Of a stretch of 64,000 bases of DNA, positions 1-33,400 are shown piece by piece. The position numbers were made by a program, and so were the translations under genes. The stretch spans positions 4,154,001-4,218,000 of the forward strand of contig JAZGTN010000059.1 of the NCBI GenBank assembly GCA_037783415.1, written 5' to 3'. Below the pieces are notes generated by a model. It ran no database searches, was not told where the DNA came from, and saw only the letters and a list, made by a program, of their open reading frames with translations. Positions within the stretch are counted from its first letter, which is position 1; every line of letters begins with the position of its first letter. The stretch is from Leptasterias polaris. Its lineage: Eukaryota; Echinodermata; Asteroidea; Forcipulatida; Asteriidae.

Positions 1-3000
1 GATGAGCTGGACAGGAGGAAAGAAGAAGCAAGCGCACTTCGGAGAGGACAAGACGAGGAGGATGAGGAACGTGTAAGTCTTCAGGACGAACTTCTTGAAA
101 CGAGTACAATCAAGAACGAACTGGAAGGTACTAACATGGAGCTTGTGCTGCTGGCAAATGAGAGTAAAGCAAACGTTGAAAGTCTTGAGAAGGAATTGCA
201 GCAGTTGAAAGAGCAGAGTGCGAGTATGGTCAGTCTGGCTCTTAAAGAGCAGCTTGAAAGTAGCGTGGCAGACCTAACAGACCAGCTAGATTTAGCTCTT
301 TCGTCCGTCCAGGGGAAGGACACTGAAATGAGCCGGTTAAAGGAACAGATTCATGGACTAGAAGTCACTCTTGGTGATGTGACTTCCGAGAAAGAGAGAC
401 TGGATTTGGCTTACACAGAAACAAAAGAAAAGTTGGAAGGGCAGCGACATCATGCTGAGGAAGAGTCAAAGCTCCTAAGAAATTATGAGCATCAGATAGA
501 GAGCCTTAAGAGAGACAAAGACGGTCTTCATCAGGAACGTCAGCAAAATATGCAGCAATATGAAAAGACAATACAAGAGCTCTCAAAATCGAGGGATTTG
601 GACACAAGCACCTTGCAGGAAGAACATAAAAAACTCATCCGTTTGAAGAATACCAAGGAGACAGAGGTGATGAGACTACAGAGCGAATACGAGGAGCTCC
701 AAGCTGACTTGTCGGGAACAAAAGACATGCTGAACTCTACTTTAGATAACCATCAACAGCTTGCAGAAATACTCAAGAACAAGGACGAGGATATCAATAA
801 CCTGGTGGAAGAGAACTCCTACTTCTTCAAGGCCATTGAGGAAAGTAAGACAAAGGTCAAACAGTTTGAAGATCTGCAGGAGAAGCGTCAGGGGAGTGAG
901 ATCCAACTTGAAGAAGCTACAGCCAAGAATGCTTCACTCTCAAGAGAGCTTGAGAAACTTAAACAGGATTTTAAGGAGCAACTGGAACGTAGCGACGTGG
1001 AGACTAAGACGCTTGAGGTTATCACTGAGCTAGAAGGTGAAGTTCATGACCTACAGGAGATGTTGGAGAACAAAGAGGAGGAGGCTTCATCCTTGCAGGG
1101 AATTGTTGCAGAGAAGCAAGATGCCCTAGCCAGACTTGAAGAAAAATCCACCCGTCAAGAGACGGAAGTAGAAGCATCCCTCGTGAAGATTTCAAATCTG
1201 GAGTCGGAGGTAATTGCTCTGAAAAGTGAACTCAAAGATAAAACTGCCAATCTCGAGGGTGTTAGTGGAAACCTTGAAGAGTCGCAACATCAGATTGCCC
1301 TCAGCGAGGCAGAAGTGGAAAGAACGGTGGAAACTCGGGGTGCGTTGCTCAGGGAAAAAGATGCCCAGATTCTTGATCTTGGCAAAAAGCTCTCTGATGT
1401 TGAAAATCTTAGGAATCATCAAGAAGGGGAATTCACTAAAGAGCTGAATGAGAAAAACACAGAATTAACTTTGCTCAGTGACAAAGTGGAGAAGATCAGA
1501 CAGGAACTGGACTCAAGGCAGAGGAACATGGGTGAAATGAAGGCAGAGCACAACTTTGTAGTAAAACAGAAGGACACCCAGATCGCCAAGCTGATTGAAA
1601 ATCTCGAGCAGTTGAAAAGAGCAACAAACCCCCAGGAAAACAGGACACCATCTCAGGACAGAGAGAATGGGGTCATCGAAGAGAATGTCATGGTCCAAAA
1701 AGTGCCTGAACTCCTGAGTGCCAATATTGAACCCATGCAGTCCAAGCATAACCAAATGCTGGACACAATCGCACAGTCTTCCCTTAGTGACAATGAGAAG
1801 CACCTTGAGTACGTTTTACAGGAGAAGGAGAAGGAGATCAAACTTTTGAAGGAGAGCAACCAGTCCCTGACGAAGTTTCTTGGGGATAAATCTCATGCTG
1901 TGATGGGAAATACAATGCTCGTTGATCTACACAAGCTTCAGATGCAGGTTCGTACCTATGAGGCTGAGCGCAGTCAAATGATGTCAGTCTTGAACGAGAA
2001 GACAAGGGAGTGCAGCAACCAGAAGAATGAGGTCCACCGCTTGGTGAATGTCATCTCTGCTCAGAAGCTCGCCCTCGACAAGGTCCAGGAAGACAACAAG
2101 GCGATCAAGCGTCACAGCGAAGAGCCTCAGAATGACATGCAGAAACAGGCCCTTCAGAAGTTGTCACGCCTCATCCAAGATAAGGACCTGGAAATCGAGG
2201 CACTCAAACAGAAGAGCGATTCACTGTTGCAAGTTCTGCAGTCAACTGCTCCGAATGACAGTTCTGACATCTCCAGGGTGCTGTCGGAGAAGGAAGAAAT
2301 GCAAAAAGAGAACAAGATGCTGAAGGAAGAGCGCGACCAACTCGTCGTCAGCATCCACCAGAAGCATCATGAGAGCCTCACTTATTATGAGGAGGTGCAG
2401 AGGCTGGTTGGAGTGGTCAACGGAGAGACGCATAAGCAGGCAGAGCTTCAGCAGAAGTACAACAATATCTACGCTGACCTGGACGACAAGGAGAGGTCCT
2501 TAAGCCAACTTACGGTAGAGGTTGAACACAGAGACTCGTCGATCGCCAAGTTCCAGAAGCAGCTGGAGGATAGGAACCAGTCCGTGCTAGATCTAGAGAA
2601 CCAATTGTTAGACTTGAATGAAAGCTTAAATAAATTTGATAAACAGAATCAAGAAGGTGCGAGCACATCTTTTGGGCACCAAGAGAATGAACAGTTAAAT
2701 GCCATGCTGAGAACTAAAGAGGAGGAAATCACTGCCTTAAAATCACAAATTGATGCACTTCAGAAAACTTCCCAAGCTTCATCCAAACCAGCGGATATTG
2801 AAGGAATGGTTAAAGCAGAAGTAGCCTTTGTCCAAACAGCACCGCCACAAAGGGAAGACAATTTTCCTGTTGAAGAAACTGAGATTGCTCAGCTGAAAGA
2901 GCAGCTCGACATCCAAGCCAAATCCTTGTCGAAAAAAGACAGCGCCATAAAATCAAAAGAGGAGGAACTGTATCACAGAATGGAAGAGCTTGCCTCTCTC

Positions 3001-3504
3001 CGGCAGCAGGTGGACCTCCAAAACCAGTCTCTCCTCCAACGAGATGCCGCCCTACAGCTGAAGAACCATCAACTGCAAACACTCACCAACGACACAAAGG
3101 CCAAAGATGTCGAGCTTCACAGTCTCAAGTCTCAAAATCAGACATTGCACGTACAGCTGCAGGGCTTCCAGACAGAGATGCAGACACTGAAGTCTGATAA
3201 TCAAGGACTGCAGCATGCGGTGCACAACAAGGACGGCGAGAACAGGACGCTGCAGGACATGAGCAACCGACTTGCGACCCAGGTTCGGGAGAAGGAGTTT
3301 GAGATCGGCGCTCTGAAGGAGAAGAACTCCACCCTGACCAGGCTGGTGCAGGACAGGGAAGTGGGTACTGCTGGTGAGCTTCAGCGACTGCTTGGCGAGA
3401 CAGAAGCGATGCAGAAACAGGCGTTGATGTTTCAACAGGAGAGAGATCAAGCCCTCCTGGCATTGCAGCGCCACCAGGCCGACTTACAGGCTCAACAAAT
3501 GGAG
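1..3504 (+). CDS. TRIP11: TRIP11 long coiled-coil exon (partial at window edge)
   Basis: The frame is open from base 1 and continues past the first ATG at 136, so the window edge cuts inside the exon. It encodes about 1168 aa of coiled coil. Several related blocks recur (for example LEIEALKQKSDSLLQ, EEITALKSQIDALQ and EFEIGALKEKNSTL), suggesting internal duplication. The exon ends in MEG-less phase 0 at GAG|GTTAGT; reading on would append about 44 unrelated residues before a stop at 3634. Confidence 0.9.
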
Positions 3505-6500
3505 GTTAGTAACTCTGCACAGTATATACCTCTGGATGGGATTTCACTTTTTCATCTATATGAAATTATTTGTTGTACCCACTGCTCATTATGCAGGATT
3601 TTGAAATGTCCTCTTGTCACTTGGCAAGCCTTCTAGTTGTAAGACAACTACTCTAGAAAGGCAGATGTCTTGGGTTCAAATCTCACCATAGTAGAATGCT
3701 TGTGGATTTCTTTTGCCGCAGGACTCCTGGAAATCACAGCAGCTACAGTGCTAAACCCAGGGTAATAAAAACAAATACAATTTGTTCATTCCGATGCGAT
3801 TATTATGTCTATCTAACAGGGATTTTACTTGTCAATTTATTGTGTCAGTTCTATAAGGTCAGAATCCCTCTGTGATGTCAAATTCTCTAATTGAACTATA
3901 TTTGAATTCAGGTGCACGGCATTCAGGAGCGAGAGCAGCGGCTTGGGAGAGAGGTGGAGCGTCTTCGTGGTCATCTCATACAGGTGGAGGAAGGCTACAC
4001 CCGGGAAGCCCTCCAGGCTGAGGAGAGAGAGAAGGAGCTGAGGAACAGGCTGGTCCAGGCTGAGGATGCTGCTAGGACCAGCTCATCGGCAGTACATAGC
4101 GCAAGGTATTGAATAAGTACCTGAAGACAACTTCCATTTACCCTCCTACTGTCTGACCATTCAAAATCATCCGCTGTTGTTTTGAATGGTACATAAATTA
4201 GGCTAGCCTGCAAAGTGATATCATGTGGTGAATACATCTAACACAGTACACAGTCAACCCTCCTACTGTCTAACCACTCAATATCATCCGCTGTTGTTTT
4301 GAATGATACATAAATTAGGCTAGCCTGCAAAGTGATATCATGTGGTGAATACATCTAACACAGTACACAGTCAACCCTCCTACTGTCTAACCACTCAATA
4401 TCATCCACTGTGGTTTTGAATGATACATAAACTATGCCAGCCTGCAATATGATAACATGTGTTGAATGCATCCACACAGTACACACAGTCAACCCTCCTA
4501 CTGTATAAGTGCTTCCTACCACCCAGGAGTAAATGGGTACCTGCTAGGGTAGAGATTATTGAAGTGAGTTGTTGGCAACCGGTGTTGCCTACTCCTAAGG
4601 AGTTGAGACGGTTTCAGGAATGCTTAGGGCCAGATGAACAGTGTTAATAATAGTGTAAGGCTCTGTGAGGAGTCTACTCGGCTTGGGAAAAAGCAAATAC
4701 TAAATACACATTTATTGTTATTTGATTTATAGTAAGGAGGCAAGCAGTCAGATAGAAAGTCTCCTGGATCAGCTACACTCGGCCACTAACCAGAAAGACC
4801 AGGCTCTACTACAGCTGGGAGAGGCCCAGGAGCAGGTACAGCAGTACAGTACATCCCTCGCCAACCTCCAGCTGGTCCTAGAGCAATTCACACAAGGTAG
4901 GTCTGGAAAGAGAGGGTCTTGCTGTGGGATATTCAGTCAGGTTCTAATCATACTTTAAAAAGACAAACATGTGCTACCTTTGACGTTGTTGCACTGTGGA
5001 GAATAACCTGTGCATTTTTTATATGGCAGCGTTCTCCCGTAACAGTGGAATCCTAAGGATCAGTCGGAATTCTTACCAAGTTAGCATAAAGTATTTTTGT
5101 TTGAACCGAACAGAAAAAGAGGCCGAGATTGCGGCCGATGTGGAGAGGTACAAACAACGAGCTGATGAGAAGGACAAAGTGGCAGGACAACTCTTCAAAC
5201 AGAATGTGGAGTTAAAAGTAAAGTACAATTTATGAAAAACACATTTAGGAAAGGCATGATAAGACGGATTTGAAAACTTTGCATGGTGGGAGTCTAATCC
5301 AGTGAGGTTTGCGGCGACACCATGTGCAGAATGTTTAGTGAGTATTAATTATTTTGAGAAGAGCTGTTGGTTTGACAACTCGGTGTTTTGATCAGTATGC
5401 TCTGATCATACTCCTGAAGACGATCAGAGCATACTGAGCGAAACGTTGAGTTGTCAAACCACCGGTTCTTCTCAGAACTACCACTACTCACCAGATGTTC
5501 ATGCACATGGCGTCAACACAAACCTTACTTGAAAAGAATGATATTCTTCCTTCATCAATCTCATTTCTTGGTTTTTGTGTGTGTTTTTTTTGCACTCAGA
5601 AAAATCAACAAAAACCTTTACCATACAGGGCTCGAATTTGGGGAGAAAATCCACAAGACTACAGGGCTCTCAAAATCTTTACTGGACCAGACATTTTTTT
5701 ACAAGACCAGATTCAAAATGTGAATTTTTTTTTTTTTAATTGCTGCCGCAGTTTAACATGCATTTGACTGCTTTTATATGAACCCGAACAGAGACAAGTA
5801 AGGGAAGAGTATACTTGATTACTCCATGGAGGAAGAAATACATGTGTTTCTTCCTCCATGATTACTCATAGAATTGAAAGATAATTTATTAGACCCAAAG
5901 TCAACACTTGAACATAATGTGTTTCTGTTATTCAATTGAAAAACACAAGACCATCGGACTTGTTAGGTCATAAGTTTACTGGCCCAACACTAAAATTACT
6001 GGCCTCGGGCCTGTGGTCCAGTGTAAAATTCGAGCCCTGCCATATGTAGTAGGTCAGTCATTGTACTTTATATATATTTTTTTTGTACATTGAGCCAAAT
6101 ATCATGCCTGAAAAAGACACTTAATTGAAGATGCCTTATCTACAAGTGAAAGCAGAGGACATCAAGCGAACTCAAAGTGTTTGCTAGCTGCTTGGGGCTG
6201 TTAGATCCCTGTGGAGTTACAGAAAGTTCCCGCGAGTAATTACACAAAATTAATCAAGAGAGGGGGAAAAATAAGAAAGCCTGGGACTCCAGAGTGCGCT
6301 TTTCTAAGTTAAGTTGGAAAACACAAGGGTTGACGTCAAAGGCACGGTAAGAACTTTCTTTACCATCGGGTATGTAAATTCTTTGCAATCAGGGCCCATT
6401 TTCATGGCTCTGCTTACCGTAAGCAAAGAATCGGCGCTTACGGAAGCAGGGAATTCCACGCTTACGTCAAGCGTATTTCACGGGTTAGCAGGGAATTTTT

Positions 6501-15459: not shown

Positions 15460-18400
15460 GTAAATATACTATTTCAAAGTTTTAATGTTGTAGACTTGTT
15501 TGAGCTCAATTTGGAGGATGCAAAATTGTCACGTTATAGGTATTTCTTCCTTGTAAAATTGGCGTGACTATTTTTTTCGTCAGTGACAACAATGACATTG
15601 GCTTGCATGCACCGGGCGGTGGAAATCTTGGTCTGAACGTGACGGTAGAGGGCGTTTTATTGTATTGCATTTCAATTTGTACCCTCAAAAGTACATCACA
15701 ATCACATGAATTGACTACTAATGCCAAACCATCAATTAATAGCCACAAAGGAAGGAAATTTCTCAGGATGAACCTCAAGAAATAAGCTGCATTTTCTTAG
15801 CGGTGTGAAGTTACTTACTTATTACTCATTGGATATTCGTGCACAAATACATACAACTGCCACTGTGAATGTGGATACACACAAGTACGTTCCCTAATTT
15901 GTACACTCATGACGTCCATTCGTTGGCTATCCGCACCCTGCTAATCGTGCGCACTGTGCAGACGGGTATAACTAGACTTGTTTAGTAGTCCCGAGAACGT
16001 TTTGTGGTAAAATAATAATGATGGCTTGGACGGACAGCGCCGGGCCGGAAGGTGGGGGGGGGGGGGGGGGGGGGGGTCTGACCTTCATAAACTATCATGC
16101 TGAGCCCGGTCATGGGGGTTCAAGTATTTTTAAACTAATTGTAAATAATTATATTAAGATCGTATTACAATGCACTATATAAAAATAAACACAATTATGT
16201 TACTGCCCCTTTAAATTGTGTTTGACGCTTTGGACCGGGCACCACTAGGTCAGAAGATGTTAAGGGGGCTCCAGAATTTACAAAATTAATATGCTTAGCC
16301 CGGTCATGGGGGTTCCAGTATTTGTTTATCAAATGTTATGTAATTATCATACGTGCGCATTGAAATGCGCTTTTAAACACATTCATTTACTGCCCCTTTA
16401 AATGTTGTTTGACGCCTTGGACCGGGCACCACTATGTCCGAAGATATTGAGGGGGATCCAGAATTTACAAAATTAATCAGCTTAGCCCGGTCATGGGGGT
16501 TCCAGTATTTGTTTATCAATTTTTATTTAATTAACCTAAACGTGCGCATTGATATGCGCTTTATTAAAAACAATGATGTACTGCCCCTTTAAATTGTGTT
16601 TGACGCCTTGGACCGGGCACCACTATGTCAGAAGATGTTAAGGGGCTCCATAATTTACAAAATTAGTATGCTTAGCCCGATCATGGGGGTTCCAGTATTT
16701 TTTTATCAATTTCATTTAATTAACCTATGTGCGCCTTGAAATGCGCTTTATTAAACCCAATAATGTACTGCCCCTTTAAATTGTGTTTGACGCCTTGGAC
16801 CGGGCACCACTAGGTCAGAAGATATTGAGGGGGCTCCATAATTTACAAAATTAGTATGCTTAGCCCGGTCATGGGGGTTCCAGTGTTTTTTAACAAATTT
16901 TATTTTAATATCATAAGTGCGCATTGATATGCGCTTTATTACACACAATAATGTACTGCCCCTTTAAATTGTGTTTGACGCCTTGGACCGGGCACCACTA
17001 TGTCAGAAGATATTGAGGGGGCTCCATAATTTACAAAATTAGTATGCTTAGCCCGATCATGGGGGTTCCAGTATTTTTTTATCAATTTCATTTAATTAAC
17101 CTATGTGCGCCTCGAAATGCGCTTTATTAAACCCAATAATGTACTGCCCCTTTAAATTGTGTTTGACGCCTTGGACCGGGCACCACTATGTCAGAAGATA
17201 TTGAGGGGGCTCCATAATTTACAAAATTAGTATGCTTAGCCCGATCATGGGGGTTCCAGTATTTTTTTATCAATTTCATTTAATTAACCTATGTGCGCCT
17301 TGAAATGCGCTTTATTAAACCCAATAATGTACTGCCCCTTTAAATTGTGTTTGACGCCTTGGACCGGGCACCACTATGTCAGAAGATATTGAGGGGGCTC
17401 CATAATTTACAAAATTAGTATGCTTAGCCCGGTCATGGGGGTTCCAGTGTTTTTTTATCAATTTCATTTAATTAACCTATGTGCGCCTCGAAATGCGCTT
17501 TATTAAACCCAATAATGTACTGCCCCTTTAAATTGTGTTTGACGCCTTGGACCGGGCACCACTATGTCAGAAGATATTGAGGGGGCTCCATAATTTACAA
17601 AATTAGTATGCTTAGCCCGGTCATGGGGGTTCCAGTGTTTTTTAACAAATTTTATTTTAATATCATAAGTGCGCATTGAAATGCGCTTTATTAAACCCAA
17701 TAATGTACTGCCCCTTTAAATTGTGTTTGACGCCTTGGACCGGGCACCACTATGTCAGAAGATATTGAGGGGGCTCCATAATTTACAAAATTAGTATGCT
17801 TAGCCCGATCATGGGGGTTCCAGTATTTTTTTATCAATTTCATTTAATTAACCTATGTGCGCCTTGAAATGCGCTTTATTAAACCCAATAATGTACTGCC
17901 CCTTTAAATTGTGTTTGACGCCTTGGACCGGGCACCACTATGTCAGAAGATATTGAGGGGGCTCCATAATTTACAAAATTAGTATGCTTAGCCCGATCAT
18001 GGGGGTTCCAGTATTTTTTTATCAATTTCATTTAATTAACCTATGTGCGCCTTGAAATGCGCTTTATTAAACCCAATAATGTACTGCCCCTTTAAATTGT
18101 GTTTGACGCCTTGGACCGGGCACCACTATGTCAGAAGATATTGAGGGGGCTCCATAATTTACAAAATTAGTATGCTTAGCCCGATCATGGGGGTTCCAGT
18201 ATTTTTTTATCAATTTCATTTAATTAACCTATGTGCGCATTGAAATGCGCTTTATTAAACCCAATAATGTACTGCCCCTTTAAATTGTGTTTGACGCCTT
18301 GGACCGGGCACCACTATGTCAGAAGATATTGAGGGGGCTCCATAATTTACAAAATTAGTATGCTTAGCCCGATCATGGGGGTTCCAGTATTTTTTTATCA

Positions 18401-21400
18401 ATTTCATTTAATTAACCTATGTGCGCCTTGAAATGCGCTTTATTAAACCCAATAATGTACTGCCCCTTTAAATTGTGTTTGACGCCTTGGACCGGGCACC
18501 ACTATGTCAGAAGATGTTGAGGGGGCCCAGAATTTACAAAATTAGTATGCTTAGCCCGATCATGGGGGTTCCAGTATTTTTTTATCAATTTCATTTAATT
18601 AACCTATGTGCGCCTTGAAATGCGCTTTATTAAACCCAATAATGTACTGCCCCTTTAAATTGTGTTTGACGCCTTGGACCGGGCACCACTATGTCAGAAG
18701 ATATTGAGGGGGCTCCATAATTTACAAAATTAGTATGCTTAGCCCGGTCATGGGGGTTCCAGTGTTTTTTAACAAATTTTATTTTAATATCATAAGTGCG
18801 CATTGATATGCGCTTTATTACACACAATAATGTACTGCCCCTTTAAATTGTGTTTGACGCCTTGGACCGGGCACCACTATGTCAGAAGATATTGAGGGGG
18901 CTCCATAATTTACAAAATTAGTATGCTTAGCCCGATCATGGGGGTTCCAGTATTTTTTTATCAATTTCATTTAATTAACCTATGTGCGCCTTGAAATGCG
19001 CTTTATTAAACCCAATAATGTACTGCCCCTTTAAATTGTGTTTGACGCCTTGGACCGGGCACCACTATGTCAGAAGATATTGAGGGGGCTCCATAATTTA
19101 CAAAATTAGTATGCTTAGCCCGATCATGGGGGTTCCAGTATTTTTTTATCAATTTCATTTAATTAACCTATGTGCGCCTTGAAATGCGCTTTATTAAACC
19201 CAATAATGTACTGCCCCTTTAAATTGTGTTTGACGCCTTGGACCGGGCACCACTATGTCAGAAGATATTGAGGGGGCTCCATAATTTACAAAATTAGTAT
19301 GCTTAGCCCGGTCATGGGGGTTCCAGTGTTTTTTATCAATTTCATTTAATTAACCTATGTGCGCCTCGAAATGCGCTTTATTAAACCCAATAATGTACTG
19401 CCCCTTTAAATTGTGTTTGACGCCTTGGACCGGGCACCACTATGTCAGAAGATATTGAGGGGGCTCCATAATTTACAAAATTAGTATGCTTAGCCCGATC
19501 ATGGGGGTTCCAGTATTTTTTTATCAATTTCATTTAATTAACCTATGTGCGCCTTGAAATGCGCTTTATTAAACCCAATAATGTACTGCCCCTTTAAATT
19601 GTGTTTGACGCCTTGGACCGGGCACCACTATGTCAGAAGATATTGAGGGGGCTCCATAATTTACAAAATTAGTATGCTTAGCCCGATCATGGGGGTTCCA
19701 GTATATAAACAATCCACAAATATACCTCGAAATTGTGTGGTCTTCCACTTTTCGTGAAGTAACACGGTCCGCCATTTTGTATAACAACATTTTGACTCCA
19801 AAAAAATTGCGGTCCGTGTGAATTCACAACTTAAGGAAGACCACATAATTTAAAGGGTTGTTTTACATGAATCATTACATTCTACCTTCAAGAAATATTA
19901 CTCCAATCAAATTATTTTCTTTACAAATGCTTGTGTATACAGCAAATATTTCAAATCGCCCCATCCGAAGGCAGGGTGTCCCTTTAACACATTTAATGCA
20001 CAGTTCGGTTTCTCTAAAAACATGCTTATACAAAAATGGTAAGGTTGCTTTTGTTTGACAATAACTTTGATAACAAAATAAATTTGTAAATTTTCAAAAA
20101 ATGTCTGAAGTCAATGGAAACATTAAAATAAAACCTTTTATATACCGTTGTTTTACGATTTCTGGCAGGTTCCCGCCTAAATCTAAAAGACGCACAACTC
20201 TTTAGTAAACATCGTTTACCGTAACTTAATACCCTATAGTTAGCTTTCAATATCACACTTAATAACATATATGAAATGGATTTGTTAGTTTCTCTCAAAC
20301 TCACCTTTTCATTTGAAAATAAAGTAATACTCGTTTCAAGTTTTAAAATAGTTCCTAAATGATATAAGTAAGTATTTTCTCACAAAAGGTCGGAGGTGAA
20401 CAGAAGCACTATAATATAACCGTCTCCTAGCAGGTTCACACCTAAACAATAAGGCATCTCTTTGTAAATATCGTTTATCGTAACAGTAAGTCACTCTCTT
20501 TCCAATATCACATCGAACACATTAGCATTGTTTCTCTAAAACCCGGAGTTGAAATTAACCATTTTAATATCACATCGAACACATTAGCATTGTTTCTCTA
20601 AAACCTGGAGTTGAAATTAACCATTTTAATTGTTTAACAATTTCTGATCAATAAGGGGTTTTTCCTGCCAATTTCAGCAAAAACAAATTCAGTTTCATTA
20701 ACACGAATTCTAATTCACGCATGTTTGGCTTGTATTGTTCGAAATTGAATGATCTTTACAATTACTCCTTTTGACTTTTGCATCCTGATGCAAAGGAGCA
20801 TTCTTTTTCAAACGAATTTTATTGATCCGGATGTTAAATTGATTGGTTTTTTTTTATAAATTGGCCAGGAAATCCTATACAGTTGACAAGTTTTTACAAA
20901 ATGTCGTAAGTGAGTAGCAACATTGAAACCTAAAAATCAACGAGAAGCGTCCAATGAATTGTAAACGAGGTGACACAAAACTGATTCATGGGGACAGAAT
21001 CTCCGGGGGACAAATTTCCCAAGGACACCGCCACTTACATGAAAACATTAACAACACTATGAAACATGGGTATTAAGATGCGGTTTTTGATTTTGTCTGC
21101 CTCAACACTAGCTTTTGATTGTATCCTTTTTCCCAGTAGGCAAATGTTTCGCTTGTCTAAACCAAAAACATGAGGTAAAAACCCTTGAAGGGGTGGGGGG
21201 GGGGGGGGGGGAGGGGGTGTTGAAATGACATTTTCATACATTGGAGTCGGTGACTGTGAGTGACTCGCGAATGTATATTAGGTAACCGATCGACTCGCCT
21301 GGGCGGATTGTTGGAGATAAAGCACGGTCGAACAGCTGGCGCTCTAGGGCATCATAGCACACCCAGTTGGAGTCATCTTTGAAGCAACAGGTGAAGTGTT

Positions 21401-24400
21401 CACCTCCATAGAGCGTCATAGCATGTAGCACATATCTGCATTGAAATAATAATAAATTGCATTTTCAAGCACAACATTTTAGTTTAACACATTAATGTTT
21501 TAATGAGAGCTGTTACAAAACACGATGCATGCGCTTATCAAAAGACAAACACTTTTTAGTTTCTCCGTGACGTCAGGGCACATCGTTAAACGGTTAATAA
21601 AATTTGCTTCATTCAATTCTGCACTCAATACTTCATTTCATGAAACGGAACAGTACAAATAAAGTTACCTCGAGTCGTAGTTTATAATAGTTCTTCCATT
21701 ACAAATAGAGTCTACAATAACACTAACAGTTGCTTACCTCTCCCCGTATATCTTGATTGTATGCTGGTACATTAAAGTGACATTCCTTTGATGCTTGACA
21801 GAAAAAACTGTTGGGCTGATAAACAACAGTGGTGGTTTACCACCGAAGTTTATGAAATTCCGAGGACTCCAATGCTTCCGTCCATGACATAACCTATAAG
21901 GAAAGACAGTTATGGAAATGTTTTGATAATTACCTCAAGCTTTGTTCTTATTTCGTTTATTTTTAAAAGTTAAATGCTATTACTATTTTGTTTAAATAAC
22001 GTTTGTTTCATGGACTTTAAGTTGCGAGAAAAGGCAAAAAAACCAGAAAACCCCCAATAAACAAACAAACAAACAAACAAACAAACAAACAACCCAACAA
22101 CCCAACAAACAAACAAACAAACACACCAACAAACGTTGTTAAGATGTTCAAGGGGGAGGGTATGCAATTTCACCGATGCTATACGCCTACCTTTCACCAA
22201 TGGGTAGTCCACACCTGCGGCTAATGAAGGGGGCAAGCCAATACTGCACAGCATCTTGAACGGTTCCTATGTTCATGTTTGGTGGAGCACTGCAAAATAA
22301 CAGTCGGAAAACATTTTAGAATTAAGAAAATTCAAGGATTGGCATGGGATAGGCAATTATGCCGAATCCTGCACCGACTGCCAATCAAAGATGTAGTTGA
22401 TTGAGTGCTGTAATAATGCAGAGCAATACATTTCGTACAGAATCGGTGGAAAACTTGTAGTTTTAAGTAAAAATTATAATGTACTTTTCATAATCACCAT
22501 AGGTCGATGTCTGCATTTGTAGCAGTGTGAATTTTCACAGCACACTCTTCATTGGAACATGCGGCTGTTCTCTTGTTACCTTGGAAGACTTCCATGTACT
22601 TCACAAACATGTTAAATTCAGACCCGTAAGCGTTCCAAGACTGTCGATGATGAACTTGCAATTCCATTTTACAAATTGTGTGCAGCCACAAAACCTTTGC
22701 CATGATCCACTCACCACGGGAACAGTGATCACAGATTGACAATATCTGTCTGCATGTGTCATGGCAACTCTCATCCAACGCCTTCCTTAACTGTGGAAAG
22801 TGGTCGATCATATGCGACAATATCAGTAACATGTTATCAATAGTACATGTGTTCTGCAGATGAATAGTTTTGCCCCTGTATAAGACCTTCCCTCCCCAAG
22901 GGGGAAGGTTACATGATCTTTCTCTGTTTAGGGGAATGTCTCTTTCAGCTGATACATCTGCTTCAGACATGTTGTGTGATGCTGCATGATCTTGTTTGTC
23001 TGAGTCATTTGCCTTTGGTTGCTTTCTTTTTTGTTTTCCTTGTTTCTTTGAAGTTTCTTTCTCATTATTTGACATACCTTTAGCAGTAGAGCTTTGCACC
23101 GTTTTTCTTGTACATTTTCTTTTGGGGAGGTTAGAGTCCTTTGCTTGTGTTGGGGTTTGCTTCTTTGACACATAAGGCCGCTTTTTGTGTGGTTTTGGTG
23201 CTGGCATCTTCAAAGGGCTTCTGAAATATTTCGATTGCTTCCTCCGCGGTCTCTTCCAGACTTCCTCTGGATTATCGACGTCTTTTTGTTTCCGTTTGCG
23301 CATCGGTCTCAGCTCAGTTTCGCCAAGTCTGCCAGATATATATATAGGTGAATGATTTGCGTATGAAGTGACCAGCTGTGAGACGAATCCGACCCCCGGG
23401 AATGAAGTCTTTTTTTATTACTCCAAACCAGTTTTCAGCTACACTATTAGTTGCTCTGTTGATGCTCGGGGGTTTGGTCAAGGAATTTGTATTGCAATAC
23501 CGATTGAGATCTCCAAACAGCAGAGCACTCCATAGTGGAAATACGTGTAGAAACCCTCCCGTAATCAGTTCTATGACACCTGGTGTATAGTACTCGTTTT
23601 GTGAATCTCCATCAGAGCCTGTCATGGAATCTTCCTCCTCTCCATCTTGATCCACTAATTGATGAGCCCTTTTTTCAACAAGTGTAAACTCTTTCCGCCA
23701 TGGTGAGCTTTCTTTTATTGTTGATGAACGTGACAAAAAGCATGATTCTTCATGAACAAGGCGGTAGTTGTCTTTAGCAGCGTCCATAAGACCTAGATCA
23801 TCAACGTCAGCACCCACGTTCCTCGTAAGTATCATCTCTTCCAGTATCTGCTGAGACGACGTCACTGTGGTTCTGGAAAGGGGTGTTGAAAATAATACAC
23901 ACATGTGATGGAAGATTTCTTTGGCCTGGATGAAACTGTGCTGGGTTTGTAGTAGGGCGAATGTGTAGAGTATGAACTGTTTCTTCCCTTTATCTGCGGT
24001 GACCTCCTTCAACCTTTGCGACACATCTTTTAATATGTGGGCAGCACAGATATGTGGGTAGGTATACCCAGTCACCTCCTTTAAATTACATTCACCTTGA
24101 ACAATGCGATAAGTCCTTCGAAGATACGATTTACAATCTTCTGCATTAAACGCATATAGCACGGATTGGATCATTGCCCATGAGAAGTCAATTTCAACTC
24201 TTCTGGGAACGACTGCTGTGAGGCATTTAGTCTTCGTCAATGCATTCACAAACCTGCCAAGGAAATGTTTTATCTCCGATGCATGCTGATCGTTGGAAAG
24301 CATCTCACTCACAGGAATACCAGCTCTCCCAACTACTGGATTCTGGGCTACAAGAGCGTAGTAAAAGATTCTTTTCTTTTGGCCGGGAATCTTTTTGATC

Positions 24401-27400
24401 AGTGAGCCTGTCGCATCAAAATACAAAATCATGGGTCCTTTCTTCAGTTGACTTAGGTAAAAATCGACTTGATCATCTAACAGTAAGTGTACCTTAAACG
24501 GTCGTACAGAGAAATACTGTATGAAGCCACCATCAGTGTAACGACAACCTGGATGGAGTTCAGCATAAACCTCTTGCAGTAAATTCACTTCTTGAAGAAC
24601 CTCAGTGTGGAGGTTTGACTGCCCCTTCTTTTCAGACACGATCTTGCGCAACACATCCAAAGATGAGCAGGCAGTGAGATTCCCTGCTGTTTTTTCTTCT
24701 TTACACATTTTGGAAACTGTCCTGTAATACCAGTTTGTCACACCTTCTTTTTCCAACTCTTCTGCAATATCCTTCCTCCTGTGACCTGTAATATGCCGTT
24801 TCTGTCCCGTGCTTCCTTTATGATTGATATCCCCTTCACGCACAACTTTGATCTTGACTTGTCGTTTGCTTACTTTAGGTTTTTTATGAATTGTGAACAC
24901 ATACCTGCAGCAAGAGCTAAATTTGCATTGTCCAATGAACTTTATGTACGGACTCTGGCGTTTTCTGCTGTTTGGCAGCTTGCAACGATTGTAGATGAAC
25001 GTTAACACACACGTTTTATTGCAGGCTTTGAACTGTTTTGCTATTATCTCTGTCCAATTATTTCGGAGTCGATTCGCTTGAGCAATTGGTTTTATTGATG
25101 ACCATTCATCCATATTCACGAAAATTGTGAATTTATTGTTACTGCTGGTTTGTGGAATCATGTCATCACCAGCTATCAACTGAACCCTGCCAGATGCAAT
25201 ATCTCTGTAGTCAGTCTCCGTCTCATCACCTGAGCTTCCCTCAACCTCTCTTAGAAAATCTTCGTTGAGATAGGTTTGCGGATGATGATGTGAAAAGTCT
25301 CCTATGTGTTCACATAAAGGGCAGTAGAATGATTCGTCTTCCTTTCCGCTAGAAGTACCTTGAACAAAGCCAACACAATCAAAATGGTACCAATCCTGGC
25401 AGTTATCACACTGAACATATGGTCTACCATCATTTGGTTGTTTGCAAATACAAAATCTTTTGGTGCAGCCGCTGTTCATTTCTCCTTTGGATAAAGAAAT
25501 TGGGTTTCGATCCTTCACTTGTCTTTGATCGGAGTTCTTTGCCGGTTCATCAGTTGAGTTTGATGTCTCATCATCATCTTCTTCACTTTCATCCTCCTCT
25601 GTTGATGGGAGATTGTTGTCCGTAGATAGGCCTTGTTTAGCAAAAGAACTTGGGTTTCGATCTTTCTCTTGTCTTTGATCGGAGTTCTTTGCCGGTTCAT
25701 CAGTTGAGTTTGATGTCTCATCATCATCTTCTTCACTTTCATCCTCCTCTGTTGATGGGAGATTGTTGTCCGTAGATAGGCCTTGTTTAGCAAAAGAACT
25801 TGGGTTTCGATCTTTCTCTTGTCTTTGATCGGAGTTCTTTGCCGGTTCATCAGTTGAGTTTGATGTCTCATCATCATCTTCTTCACTTTCATCCTCCTCT
25901 GTTGATGGGAGATTGTTGTCCGTAGATAGGCCTTGTTTAGCAAAAGAACTTGGGTTTCGATCTTTCTCTTGTCTTTGATCGGAGTTCTTTGCCGGTTCAT
26001 CAGTTGAGTTTGATGTCTCATCATCATCTTCTTCACTTTCATCCTCCTCTGTTGATGGGAGATTGTTGTCCGTAGATAGGCCTTGTTTAGCAAAAGAACT
26101 TGGGTTTCGATCTTTCTCTTGTCTTTGATCGGAGTTCTTTGCCGGTTCATCAGTTGAGTTTGATGTCTCATCATCATCTTCTTCACTTTCATCCTCCTCT
26201 GTTGATGGGAGATTGTTGTCCGTAGATAGGCCTTGTTTAGCAAAAGAACTTGGGTTTCGATCTTTCTCTTGTCTTTGATCGGAGTTCTTTGCCGGTTCAT
26301 CAGTTGAGTTTGATGTCTCATCATCATCTTCTTCACTTTCATCCTCCTCTGTTGTTGGGAGATCTTTGTCCGAAAGAGAACTTGGGTTTCGTACTTTCTC
26401 TTTTATTCCGTCTGTTGTTGTTCTTGTTGTCATTGGATTTGTCATTAGGAGGACCCTGTCTCTTAGTCCGTCCCTGTTTCTATTCCATTGGTTGTATAAC
26501 CATTTCCTGTTTTTCACATTATTCTTAATGTTCATGGAAACTGCCACCTGACCCCATATACATGTTGAGAGTCTATATCCAGCCTTGTCCAGTTGCCTTT
26601 GTTCTTGGACGTTCACCAATTTCTCAAACAGTGCTTCAGTGCTCCTTGAAGCCATCTTTGTTGTCAACGTCTGATGGGTAAAATATTGTGAGATTTTTAT
26701 TTGCTTGTGGTAAACTCTGATTATTGTTGGTCGTGTGTATCCAATTGTAAATTATTGGATTACAATATAATGTTTCAGATCACGCATTAGGAACTAGTTC
26801 GCAAATCTTGATGCAACATATAAAGCAGTTTTATAAGCTTGAATAAAAACAAACAACAGTAGTGGTGGCACTATAATTATACACTGTGTGTACAAATAAG
26901 TGAATGAGCTCCTTGGTGGCTCCTTAATGCGACAATGAACACTAGGGATAGTGGTTTCTTGCTGTTTCTTGTAGGGTTGGGGTAGACAATTAACAATTTT
27001 AAATATAATCATTCAGTCCAGAGGTTTTTATTTGTTATGAATCACGATGATAAAGTATGATAAAGTATTGTATAACGTTGACCCTCCTGCTCTTTGTAAC
27101 ATTTTCCACAAATAGAGAGCCTAGCTTAAAGCCATACAGTCGTGTTTGGGCCATTAAAAAAAATAAACATAAACAAGTAATCACAAAACATACCTTTAAA
27201 GTAACAGAATTGCACAGTGTTTAGAATAAAGGAACATTGTAACTTGAATTCAAGGACTTTATTCAGACGTATGAATGCGCAACAAAATTGCAATGCCCAA
27301 AATATGAATAAGCTGTGAACGTTAACGTTTTATTTTCGTCAATGTTACACTTTCTAAACTAATTACTTTCTTAGAATCACAATAATCTAAGTACTGTGCA

Positions 27401-30400
27401 AATCTGACTTTTGTGTCCTGTATTTCTTTGGGGGCAACATTAAATTAGTTGGCAATCTGTACCTAGAAGCTTTCAAGTCAGTTAGGCTGGTGCCCGCATA
27501 TTCTCCTGACTTTGTTAAGCATGTATATATGCCCTCTGATCCTCGGGACGCCGTATCCAAGTTATTATTGAACAGTTCGGCGGATCAGTTTAGTAGCGTT
27601 GACTACGCATTATAACTTACCTCGGCTGAGTTGTAAATGGAGTGACTGACTAACTGTGGCTGGGATGGGCCCTTATATGCACTTCAAGATGTCTACCGTG
27701 ACCATTAACTCAATTTACAGGTGAACATTATCCAATTAGAAACCCAGGAACAATTTTCAAAGAAATTCTTCCGCCAATCAGAATCGACTTGATAGGCGTC
27801 CCCAGCAGTAACGTGATTTCGTTTACTTTGTCATGAATAAGGATACAAGCTTAATAACAAGTTTTTTAATTAACATATTATCTGTGGCCAATAAGAAAGA
27901 TGTGCGCAGCGTCCCCAGCAACATTGTAAACTTCATCAAAAGTTGCTTAATTTGCATATTGTTATCCTTAAACCAATGAAAAACAAGTGGGACAGCGTCC
28001 CCGGTAACAATAATCCGAGCACAAACAAACGTTTTTAATTAACAACTTCAATCAGTGGCGAATAAGAAAGAAGTGGGACAGCGTCCCCCGCTAAAAAAGA
28101 TACAAGTTTAACCAATTGTTTTTTTAACAACCAATAATATTTTTAATTATCATGGTATCTGTGGGGTGGATATGCGCGTCGCCAGCAGCAGTATAAACTT
28201 TATCATAAGTTGCTTAAAGGGACACACCGGCTTCGTTGGGCTAAAAAATAGACTAAAACATGACTCCAAAGGTCTTCCAATATAAAGCATACTAAGAAGT
28301 CTATAACAGAAAATTAATAAAACAATACAGGAGCCCCCATGACCGGGCTAAGCATAATAACTTTGTAAATTCTGGGCCCCCTCAATATCTTCTGACATAC
28401 TGGTGCCCGGTCCAAGGCGTCAAACAACATTTAAAGGGGCAGTACATTATTGTGTGTAATAAAGCGCATATCAATGCGCACGTATGATATTAAAATAAAA
28501 TTGATAAAAAAATACTGGAACCCCCATGACCGGGCTAAGCATACTAATTTTGTAAATTATGGAGCCCCCTCAATATCTTCTGACATAGTGGTGCCCGGTC
28601 CAAGGCGTCAAACAACATTTAAAGGGGCAGTACATTATTGGGTTTAATAAAGCGCATATCAATGCGCACGTATGATATTAAAATAAAATTTGTTTAAAAA
28701 TACTGGAACCCCCATGACCGGGCTAAGCATACTAAGTTTGTAAATTCTGGATCCCCCTTAACATCTTCTGACCTAGTGGTCCCCGGTCCAAGGCGTCAAA
28801 CACAATTTAAAGGGGCAGTACATCATTGTTTTTAATAAAGCGCATTTCAAGGCGCACATAGGTTAATTAAATAAAATTGATAAAAAAATACTGGAACCCC
28901 CATGACCGGGCTAAGCATACTAATTTTGTAAATTATGGAGCCCCCTCAATATCTTCTGACATAGTGGTGCCCGGTCCAAGGCGTCAAACAACATTTAAAG
29001 GGGCAGTACATTATTGGGTTTAATAAAGCGCATATCAATGCGCACGTATGATATTAAAATAAAATTTGTTTAAAAATACTGGAACCCCCATGACCGGGCT
29101 AAGCATACTAAGTTTGTAAATTCTGGATCCCCCTTAACATCTTCTGACCTAGTGGTGCCCGGTCCAAGGCGTCAAACACAATTTAAAGGGGCAGTACATC
29201 ATTGTTTTTAATAAAGCGCATTTCAAGGCGCACATAGGTTAATTAAATAAAATTGATAAAAAAATACTGGAACCCCCATGACCGGGCTAAGCATACTAAT
29301 TTTGTAAATTATGGAGCCCCCTTAACATCTTCTGACCTAGTGGTGCCCGGTCCAAGGCGTCAAACACAATTTAAAGGGGCAGTACATCATTGTTTTTAAT
29401 AAAGCGCATTTCAAGGCGCACATAGGTTAATTAAATAAAATTGATAAAAAAATACTGGAACCCCCATGACCGGGCTAAGCATACTAATTTTGTAAATTAT
29501 GGAGCCCCCTCAATATCTTCTGACATAGTGGTGCCCGGTCCAAGGCGTCAAACAACATTTAAAGGGGCAGTACATTATTGGGTTTAATAAAGCGCATATC
29601 AATGCGCACGTATGATATTAAAATAAAATTTGTTTAAAAATACTGGAACCCCCATGACCGGGCTAAGCATACTAAGTTTGTAAATTCTGGATCCCCCTTA
29701 ACATCTTCTGACCTAGTGGTGCCCGGTCCAAGGCGTCAAACACAATTTAAAGGGGCAGTACATCATTGTTTTTAATAAAGCGCATTTCAAGGCGCACATA
29801 GGTTAATTAAATAAAATTGATAAAAAAATACTGGAACCCCCATGACCGGGCTAAGCATACTAATTTTGTAAATTATGGAGCCCCCTTAACATCTTCTGAC
29901 CTAGTGGTGCCCGGTCCAAGGCGTCAAACACAATTTAAAGGGGCAGTACATCATTGTTTTTAATAAAGCGCATTTCAAGGCGCACATAGGTTAATTAAAT
30001 AAAATTGATAAAAAAATACTGGAACCCCCATGACCGGGCTAAGCATACTAATTTTGTAAATTATGGAGCCCCCTCAATATCTTCTGACATAGTGGTGCCC
30101 GGTCCAAGGCGTCAAACAACATTTAAAGGGGCAGTACATTATTGGGTTTAATAAAGCGCATATCAATGCGCACGTATGATATTAAAATAAAATTTGTTTA
30201 AAAATACTGGAACCCCCATGACCGGGCTAAGCATACTAAGTTTGTAAATTCTGGATCCCCCTTAACATCTTCTGACCTAGTGGTGCCCGGTCCAAGGCGT
30301 CAAACACAATTTAAAGGGGCAGTACATCATTGTTTTTAATAAAGCGCATTTCAAGGCGCACATAGGTTAATTAAATAAAATTGATAAAAAAATACTGGAA

Positions 30401-33400
30401 CCCCCATGACCGGGCTAAGCATACTAATTTTGTAAATTATGGAGCCCCCTCAATATCTTCTGACATAGTGGTGCCCGGTCCAAGGCGTCAAACAACATTT
30501 AAAGGGGCAGTACATTATTGGGTTTAATAAAGCGCATATCAATGCGCACGTATGATATTAAAATAAAATTTGTTTAAAAATACTGGAACCCCCATGACCG
30601 GGCTAAGCATACTAAGTTTGTAAATTCTGGATCCCCCTTAACATCTTCTGACCTAGTGGTGCCCGGTCCAAGGCGTCAAACACAATTTAAAGGGGCAGTA
30701 CATCATTGTTTTTAATAAAGCGCATTTCAAGGCGCACATAGGTTAATTAAATAAAATTGATAAAAAAATACTGGAACCCCCATGACCGGGCTAAGCATAC
30801 TAATTTTGTAAATTATGGAGCCCCCTTAACATCTTCTGACCTAGTGGTGCCCGGTCCAAGGCGTCAAACACAATTTAAAGGGGCAGTACATCATTGTTTT
30901 TAATAAAGCGCATTTCAAGGCGCACATAGGTTAATTAAATAAAATTGATAAAAAAATACTGGAACCCCCATGACCGGGCTAAGCATACTAATTTTGTAAA
31001 TTATGGAGCCCCCTCAATATCTTCTGACATAGTGGTGCCCGGTCCAAGGCGTCAAACAACATTTAAAGGGGCAGTACATTATTGGGTTTAATAAAGCGCA
31101 TATAAATGCGCACGTTTAGGTTAATTAAATAAAAATTGATAAACAAATACTGGAACCCCCATGACCGGGCTAAGCATTATAATTTTTTCAATTTTGAAGC
31201 CCCCTCAACATCTTCTGATGAAATGCTGCCTGGTCCAAGGCATCAAACATCATTTACTATCTAATTTATAGTATAATTTATATATTTTATTTATTAATAG
31301 CGCATTGTACGTGTAGTATCACGTAATGTTAATCAAATAAAATCAATTTAAAAATACTGGAACCCCATGACCGGCCTAAGCATAATACTTTTTTTGAATT
31401 TTGGAGCCCTCTGTACATCTTTTGACCTTATGGAGCCTCCGGTCCGAGGTAGACTTGGCCGAAGACGTCAGTGATCGATAGTGGATACTGTGCATACTAC
31501 GCTCGGTTACAACTCGTTACAGCGCACCCTCTTTCGACTTGATTTACCCAACTTGACTAGCTGTACGTGAGAGCATAGACTGGTCCGCTAAGGATAAGGA
31601 CAGGCTCCGGTCTAGGAATCCGGTGCTTCTAAAGTTCTATTGGACAGACATGCAGTGACCTAAGCTTTCCATATCAGATATCAAGTGTTATGATTGGTCC
31701 GAAGAAATGTGGTTGTCGGCTGAATTGGATGCGAGGTCAAAGGTGCGTTTGTCCGGTTCAAATTTCCTCGAAACGCTCGAAGCCGGTGTCACGTCCTCGA
31801 CGTTCCGGCGTACTGAGCGTTTCAGGTGAGGTACGCATGCGCAGCCGTACTGTTGTCTCCTTCTCGTGCTCTTAAATTGTCAGACAATCCGCGTCGTAAG
31901 AATATTTCTTAGATTGGGCACGTACACCCCCTCTTTTCCCCCTCTGTCAGGCCTTCCACATACCTCCCGCTGGTAAGGTAATGAGTTATTATTGATGTCT
32001 TCACACCTAGAGTTACGAAACGACTTGACATGCTTGTGCTTCATACTAGTAGTAGTACTACAGCTCATGAGCGACGCCATGACATCTAGAGACTAGAGGA
32101 ACACTCAGTGCGACACAAAAATTGACTACTTTCGCTTGCTGTGCGCAGGCATGACATGACGTAATGTATTATATTTAGTCATCTGGAACGTTTAGTACGC
32201 CGGAATGCTCAGTGCGCGACACCGGTCTCTGGCGTAAAACACGAGCCTCGAAGTGTGACGTCATATGTAATGTTCGGGCTAGTGATCGGAGCTAGTCAAG
32301 TTGGGTAATTCAAGCCACAAGAGGGCGCGCTATAACGAGTTGTAAATGAGCGCAGTACAGTATATCCACTATCGATTACTGACGTCTTGGGCCAAGACTA
32401 GTTCCGAGGCGTCAAATACCATACTTGGCAGTAAATTAATGTATTTAGGCTAATTATGGCACATTATTAGGCAATTTTTGTATTTCATTTTTAATTCAAA
32501 TAAAAAATGGACCCCTATCGAGCAGGAGAAATTTGAGAAAAAGGTGGAGAAAAGACCATTCAATGCATGGTCTAAAATGGCGGTGCCTTGCCAGGAGGTA
32601 AAAGCATTATTATTGTTCTATAGGGAATATCGCAAGGACTAGCAAACAAGTCTAATGTTTGTCCGGACGCACACTGTGCACGTAGAGGTGTGGATAGCTT
32701 GCGTGTGTACATGTTTTGTATACACACACGTTATGCTCGAATATCCAATAGGGAATAAGTAAGTAACTTCACACCATATTTCTTGACCATTCACTAAAAT
32801 TAGGCATTTTCAGTGACATCACAAATTTGTTCAGACAACTTGCGATTAAAGGCCGGCACTCCACATTATAAAAAAATATATAGTAAAAAAACCCGATAAA
32901 CAACATACAATTTATAACCCTGATATTTTTACTTGATTCCTGTGAAAGTTTCATCCAAATACAAGACGAAGTTACAGTAACAGTGTGAGAAAGAGCGAAC
33001 AAATGACAACATTTCGGGTTTCCACGGGCCGCGCCCAATGGCCCAGGTTTTTGCCAAGCTCTGCTCCGTGTCACTGTCATGTGCAATTTCATGACCGGGC
33101 GCACGGGTTGCGAAGGTCGTACCATTGTGAAAATACATGGTATGCAGTGTTCTCCACAGACTTTTTCTTTGGGAGGGCGGCATGACGTAATCAAAATGGC
33201 GCCCGTCGATATGACGACATCAAAATGGCGCCCGTTGGTTTATGACGTCATCGCACGTGAAAGGAAAAAACACCCGAGATAGTCCTTTTCTTAAAAATAA
33301 TCTTATTAACCCCCGGGCCCCGACACTATAATAAGGAGAATGATTGACATCCATTTCATTCTGTCGAAACAACCTTGTTGTAAAACTAATTCAAAACCTA

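Follow-up and report, generated by a model that had tools for sequence, protein, structure and literature searches.

What kind of genetic unit is formed by a gene that lies between two inverted arrays of tandem repeats, and does it belong to a known group of transposons? The question arises from a 64,000-nucleotide stretch of Leptasterias polaris DNA (C59:4154001-4218000, hereafter the window), for which a reading made from the letters alone (the sequence-only reading) had proposed an undescribed transposon at 15802..32775 encoding a PHD finger, a transposase core and a protein region resembling ubiquitin-specific proteases (USPs). Searches of the genome (629.7 Mb in 334 contigs) show that the element is present at unrelated sites, has defined ends and belongs to a wider family flanked by 9-bp target site duplications (TSDs). 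We are fairly confident that it is a Rehavkus-like transposon of the Mutator assemblage (Mutator-like elements, MULEs) whose protein carries PHD, WRKY-like, DDE and USP-like parts, the likeness to Rehavkus being drawn with the published description of that group.

The element and its copies

A second copy on contig C157, in inverted orientation, aligns with the window over 15799-32775, and both of its flanks are unrelated to those of the window. The boundaries proposed for a mobile element are thereby upheld at both sides, where they coincide with terminal inverted repeats (TIRs), with the addition on the left of three element bases (AGC at 15799-15801) outside 15802. Between the arrays the two copies are 99.7-99.9% identical (11 mismatches and 3 gap openings over 5,925 bp; 3 mismatches over 2,337 bp), which points to recent movement; in the right arm, array included, identity is 96.8% over a length of 4,473 bp. 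The copies differ in size (~21.9 kb at C157, ~17.0 kb in the window), in the lengths of their arrays and in the number of a 150-bp coding repeat. A further copy, on C144, is a 2.3-kb derivative that keeps both element ends and has no gene match.

More distant relatives were found on C21, C73 and C49, with the termini ACCGGTGTGAAG and ACCGGCGTGAAG (C21, C73) and ACCAGGCTGAAG (C49). The terminal repeat outside the arrays measures 45 bp in the window element, ~110 bp in C73 and ~205 bp in C21. The C21-type family has at least 40 ends (50 matches among those listed, with 40 of 113 candidates scored), and its paired ends lie 0.8 to 15.5 kb apart among the matches listed, so many of these copies are shortened and probably non-autonomous.

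Two observations concern ends of this kind. On C101 a right end at 443913 and a left end at 2880411 lie 2.44 Mb apart with the element bodies on their outer sides, and no gene match is listed on that contig; the pair may stem from one element that was split, from a rearrangement or from an error in scaffolding. At the right end of the window element, 32300-32402 holds a ~100-bp sequence with many copies in the genome, often as close inverted pairs (with 40 of 777 candidates scored), which is probably a small unrelated repeat inserted into the element end.

Target site duplications

Perfect 9-bp TSDs flank the C21, C73 and C49 relatives, and the flanks of the C157 and C144 copies match at 8/9 positions. 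The frame fixed on these first insertions was then applied to 12 further ones, obtained by pairing neighbouring C21-type ends on opposite strands and leaving out unpaired ends. Nine of the 12 fit: seven match at 9/9 and two at 8/9, that at C123 being set in an A/T run, the remaining three (C209, C67 and C66) having no TSD. Over all 18 insertions examined in the wider family, ten have 9/9, four have 8/9 and four, including that of the window, have none. When the left flank of one insertion was compared with the right flank of another, none of 132 control pairs matched at more than 6/9, and 8/9 is reached by 0.02-0.08% of random flank pairs. For the window copy the match is 3/9 in the fixed frame but rises to 6/9 (ATATTTCTT, 32776-32784) if the right end is read without its last three bases, from which it seems that the last three element bases at that junction have been lost. 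A duplication of 6 bp lying apart from the TIR was considered and rejected, since C21 and C73 show the three bases at the terminus to be part of the element and the TSD to be 9 bp long.

Terminal arrays

The inverted arrays of ~188-bp units are as had been proposed (18.7 and 15.7 copies in opposite orientation). Motifs of the CCGGGCACCACTA type, counted with up to 2 changes tolerated, occur 19 times on the plus strand and never on the minus strand in the left array, and 15 times on the minus strand and never on the plus strand in the right array, so that the units of one array are co-oriented; the 25 longest inverted pairs between the arrays are 92-95% complementary. Four families with a gene were checked on both sides of it, and each has inverted arrays of ~190-220-bp units there, with units of ~213-220 bp in C21 (partly as a 475-bp compound), 193 bp in C73 and 201-211 bp in C49; an array of 235-bp units lies outside the C21 element. 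The copies show that array and gene are not independent repeats, an outcome that would have refuted the sequence-only reading. CCGGGC-bearing arrays are likewise present in all four shorter C21-type copies examined (C66, C71, C58 at 4.89 Mb, and C123) and in the C144 derivative. No array with the CCGGGC motif was seen in the pieces at C152, C58 1.66 Mb and C58 5.88 Mb, which are not shown to span both ends.

The units themselves are related. Those of the window, C21 and C73 families share ~60-74% identity over 112-151 bp (C21 against C73, E ~1e-26), and a three-way alignment has 60 of 137 columns identical, including CCGGGCAC, CCCG and TATTTTTT blocks. This similarity across three families indicates that the arrays descend together with the gene. 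The unit of C49 is not similar to the other three to any such degree, and when the terminal stretches were compared with the array unit no similarity was found. Co-oriented units with shared blocks look like repeated transposase-binding sites, and the shared blocks provide concrete candidates for them; in Galileo, transposase-binding sites lie in internal TIR repeats (PMC4079207; statements on this and the other papers cited refer to the parts of them covered). Such arrays are also a possible source of satellite DNA.

The transposase gene

The gene on the minus strand had been read as a single unit. It does appear to be one gene, but with several exons, and in the window copy its frame is broken: the long frame ends at 23314 and continues in an overlapping frame, whereas C157 has a single intact frame of 1267 amino acids over that part. 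The proposed PHD finger is confirmed by Pfam (PF00628, E 4.7e-8; its 33.4 bits exceed the cut-off of 24), and its best sequence match in the PDB is BPTF (E 3.7e-10). It is followed by a predicted WRKY-like fold with a conserved C..C..H pattern, which precedes the DDE core.

An RNase H fold had been suggested around residues D747 and D823, which are D779 and D855 in the stop-to-stop numbering used here, and is indeed predicted by an AlphaFold2 (AF2) model, in which both residues lie on, or just behind, strands of the RNase H-like sheet. In an 11-row alignment (some of its rows near-duplicates) D855 is invariant and D779 nearly so. The predicted fold is nearest to ISCth4, which we take to be an IS256 element, and then to the P element, foamy virus integrase and Hermes; a helical insertion interrupts the model, as in IS256, hAT and P structures. 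The core has a CxxH motif at residues 902/905, and CxxH is a signature of MULE transposases. The IS256 group resembles MULE transposases (PMC6446971). The MULE profile PF10551, which commonly marks the superfamily but does not enter its definition, was not among the matches in general Pfam scans of the window protein and its relatives.

Table 1. Features of the element in the window (positions are those of the whole stretch)
Feature	Position	Strand	Basis or remark
Whole element, ~17 kb	15799..32775	.	AGC+GGTGTGAAG to CACACC; C157 alignment, TIR ends
Left target duplication CATTTTCTT	15790..15798	+	right counterpart eroded
Left terminal inverted repeat	15802..15846	+	40/45 bp identical to right end
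Right terminal inverted repeat	32731..32775	-	40/45 bp identical to left end
Left array	16186..19704	+	18.7 copies of 188-bp unit; 19 CCGGGCACCACTA-type motifs, all plus
Right array	28310..31256	-	15.7 inverted copies of 188-bp unit; 15 CCGGGCACCACTA-type motifs, all minus
Main open frame	23314..26751	-	1145 aa between stop codons; numbering of the sequence-only reading from the Met at 26655
150-bp coding repeat, acidic/Ser-rich linker	25493..26372	-	x5.9 in window, x2.9 in C157
PHD finger, residues 434-480	25312..25452	-	Pfam PF00628
WRKY-like fold (predicted)	24790..25161	-	conserved C..C..H; precedes DDE core
RNase H-type DDE core (predicted) with helical insertion	23362..24525	-	catalytic residues conserved
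D779	24415-24417	-	
D855	24187-24189	-	
E1106	23434-23436	-	
C-terminal domain, exon 1 part, Cys box NTCTIDN	22498..22910	-	homology + GT-AG
C-terminal domain, exon 2, VQDAVQYW (QQD-box-like)	22191..22289	-	homology + GT-AG
C-terminal domain, exon 3, CHGRKH + PPLLFI (Leu-box-like)	21738..21893	-	homology + GT-AG
C-terminal domain, exon 4, His box GGEHFTCC..W..YD	21234..21435	-	homology + GT-AG

Relatives with proteases behind the DDE core

The proteins of the relatives are 55% (C21), 54% (C73) and 24% (C49) identical to that of the window; C49 also has 100% identical stretches on C65 and C213 (with a 1497-amino acid query). The C49 relative P0007 combines a DDE core with a PHD finger (E 6.2e-7) and a UCH domain (PF00443, E 5.4e-28), and when the C49 locus is read further (P0008) a C48 match of 20.2 bits appears, just under the cut-off of 20.7. 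On C58, P0011 has both UCH (PF00443, E 1.8e-22) and C48, that is Ulp1 (E 1.9e-10, above the cut-off), its PHD finger being in a separate preceding frame; at L036:2030-5260, on C58, DDE core, USP and Ulp1 share one frame of 1076 amino acids. The proteases of these distant relatives sit behind the DDE core, and on the strength of such profile matches we regard the USP domain in them, and in one case the Ulp1 domain, as certain.

The PHD finger recurs in P0004, P0005, P0007, P0009, P0010 and L036; Pfam found none in P0006, nor in P0008 and P0011, which are both pieces cut at the N-terminus. In P0005 it is C-terminal, with a segment ahead of it that looks Ulp1-like by eye. Array-type termini, PHD finger and 9-bp TSD thus stay together down to 24% protein identity. 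L038 aligns with the DDE set without the first catalytic D and the E, and is probably dead. In a set of 5.8 billion proteins, P0003 as query retrieved P0004-P0006 and the alignment A1 retrieved the same three, and P0007 found no homologue; among viral contigs 37 stretches matched a pattern and none was confirmed as a relative.

The C-terminal domain of the window protein

The Cys and His boxes reported by the sequence-only reading are present, but in different exons (Table 1), whose borders were placed by homology and GT-AG sites rather than from transcripts. Once spliced, the domain has 289 amino acids in the window and 295 in C73, with 46% identity and equal intron phases. Both contain the motifs NTCTIDN, VQDA, PPLLFI/PPMLFI and a His box of HFTCC, W and D, and the Cys, His, Trp and Asp do not vary from one to the other. 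Cys, QQD, Leu and His boxes, in that order, are features of USPs.

The spliced domain had no Pfam match, and a PDB profile search returned a single row, an unrelated viral protein at E 1.6. Aligned with hhalign to the sequences of the relatives, the Leu and His boxes fall in register at a probability of 0.2%; against the USP stretch of the relatives the QQD box is aligned at a probability of 0.9% and a score of 20.0 (120 shuffles: mean 14.4, maximum 19.5), and against their Ulp1 stretch the score is 10.95 (shuffles 14.5). As there is no significant match to a C19 profile, we call the domain USP-like and do not file it as C19; we read it as probably a divergent USP.

Relationship to Rehavkus

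Rehavkus elements are described as having a 9-bp TSD, TIRs of 26-400 bp, one open reading frame, a PHD finger and a minisatellite, with arthropods and annelids as hosts; very few are known, all solely from Repbase (PMC6446971). In Rehavkus-1_TC of Tribolium, tandem 164-bp repeats lie inside the inverted termini (PMC10218199). The window family agrees with Rehavkus (including Rehavkus-1_TC and Rehavkus-1_HR) in its 9-bp TSD, PHD finger, single gene, tandem repeats in inverted termini and MULE-like core, and its terminal repeats of 45 to ~205 bp are inside the published range. Each published structural mark of Rehavkus is thus present, and we file the element as Rehavkus-like within the Mutator assemblage rather than as a new superfamily. 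With Mutator-like elements generally it shares the predicted RNase H DDE core with CxxH and helical insertion, and a TSD length within 8-11 bp.

There are also differences. The published table lists no protease and arthropod and annelid hosts only (PMC6446971), whereas the window lineage has a USP-like domain, or USP and Ulp1 in its relatives, and an echinoderm-type host; its members reach 15.5-22 kb with up to 26.7 units per array. The mitochondrial codons of the genome bear on the host: COX1 on C334 (found on C318 as well) has AAA at several positions where other animals have Asn, AGA at positions of Ser and ATA at positions of Ile, which is the code of echinoderms and flatworms (table 9), and its sequence looks like that of an echinoderm. 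Neither a USP or Ulp1 domain nor an echinoderm host was found for Rehavkus in the literature covered, which does not extend to Repbase Reports. The element is sharply delimited and moved recently, in a group of which little has been described, and it likely extends the host range of that group to echinoderms. The suggestion that the element was undescribed is not supported, because array-type inverted termini, PHD finger and 9-bp TSD are in print for Rehavkus, and transposases with Ulp1 or PHD for Ginger1 and Mutator. Fusions of transposases with Ulp1, OTU, PHD and C19 in other groups (PMC2836005) make the combination less surprising; they include a T. vaginalis protein that joins transposase_11 to Peptidase C19 (cited in PMC2836005), which is of a different transposase family and for which PHD or arrays are not mentioned in the part covered.

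Alternative explanations

The arrays resemble satellite DNA and the gene has introns, as might be expected of a host gene lying by chance between two unrelated arrays, but this is scarcely conceivable, being ruled out by the recurrence of the whole unit at C157 with other flanks and by diverged relatives that also have TSDs and arrays. It is very improbable that the element belongs to Ginger1 or KDZ. KDZ elements carry accessory domains, but no KDZ model, although one is present in Pfam, matched in the scans described above. Ginger1 joins a DDE enzyme to Ulp1 or OTU, and one family, Ginger1-9_HM, has Ulp1 and PHD; Ginger1 differs, however, in its Gypsy-type integrase, its TIRs of ~40-270 bp and its 4-bp CCGG/CCGT TSD (PMC2836005), against the helical insertion and the 9-bp TSDs of other sequence seen here, and Ginger1 identity was rejected on the TSDs. 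Closer to hand is a canonical MULE lineage, either of the Phantom/NOF foldback type or akin to the hydra and lancelet Mutators with Ulp1. MULEs commonly have 8-11 bp TSDs and long or repeat-bearing TIRs, and several of their groups have zinc fingers such as FLYWCH; Phantom elements carry FLYWCH/SWIM fingers, with a minisatellite in those of aphids (PMC6446971). In the foldback element Tetris the TIRs contain tandem repeats of ~220 bp and the TSDs are 8-10 bp long, although no transposase is known for it (PMC4079207). Some Mutator transposases are published with Ulp1 and, according to a figure legend, PHD (PMC2836005), a precedent that weighs against the Rehavkus-like assignment, lowering our confidence in it and strengthening the case for a canonical MULE. 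On the other side, the published MULE table puts the PHD finger under Rehavkus (PMC6446971), Rehavkus-1_TC is an element with tandem repeats in its inverted termini (PMC10218199), and the parts of these papers covered mention no USP (C19) in Mutator-like elements and no array-type termini in those with Ulp1. We consider a canonical MULE distinctly unlikely.

A separate alternative concerns the C-terminal domain, which could be a scaffold or a DNA- or protein-binding module that resembles a USP by chance; the window element would then have no deubiquitinase and would still be a transposon. The absence of a Pfam match and of a convincing PDB match, and the hhalign probabilities below 1%, speak for this. 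Against it stand the USP-like order of the Cys, QQD-like, Leu and His boxes, the invariance of the four residues despite 46% identity to C73, the retained exon phases and the relatives with a certain USP behind the DDE core. Chance likeness is, on balance, unlikely, if quite conceivable, and we return to the USP-like domain in what follows.

A possible mode of transposition

The sequence-only reading had suggested an element that reads histone state and edits ubiquitin or SUMO marks, and a scheme that we infer for the binding sites, the ligand of the PHD finger and the activity and target of the protease could run as follows. One multi-exon gene would produce a transposase comprising PHD finger, WRKY-like DNA-binding fold, RNase H/DDE core with helical insertion and USP-like C-terminus. 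Its DNA-binding parts would recognise the short terminal repeat and the CCGGGCAC/CCCG blocks in each ~190-bp unit, and the repetition of these blocks would load many transposase molecules at both ends. The DDE core would excise the element and insert it at staggered sites, giving rise to the 9-bp duplications, whilst the PHD finger may bind histone H3 tails and steer or stabilise the complex on chromatin. The protease-like tail might strip ubiquitin or a ubiquitin-like protein from the transposase itself and so affect its stability; alternatively, its target might be chromatin or repair proteins at the break.

More speculatively, and with real doubt on our part, the family may represent a Mutator-type branch in which one transposase reads histones, cuts DNA and acts as a deconjugase (PHD, DDE and USP in the window lineage, with Ulp1 in addition in a sister lineage). 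It would take ubiquitin and SUMO off the nucleosomes of its donor or target sites and use units of roughly nucleosome length (188-220 bp) as loading platforms. With certain USP and Ulp1 domains in one transposase frame, the older idea that removal of ubiquitin or SUMO takes part in transposition would become directly testable.

Other features of the window

Outside the element, an open frame of 1211 amino acids on the plus strand (1-3636) appears to encode a long coiled coil, by eye similar to golgins, and a plus-strand frame at 55728-56219 resembles, again by eye, an exon of hnRNP L. Close to the latter, 56349-58712 is a perfect tandem array in which a 73-bp unit is repeated 32.4 times with 100% matches.

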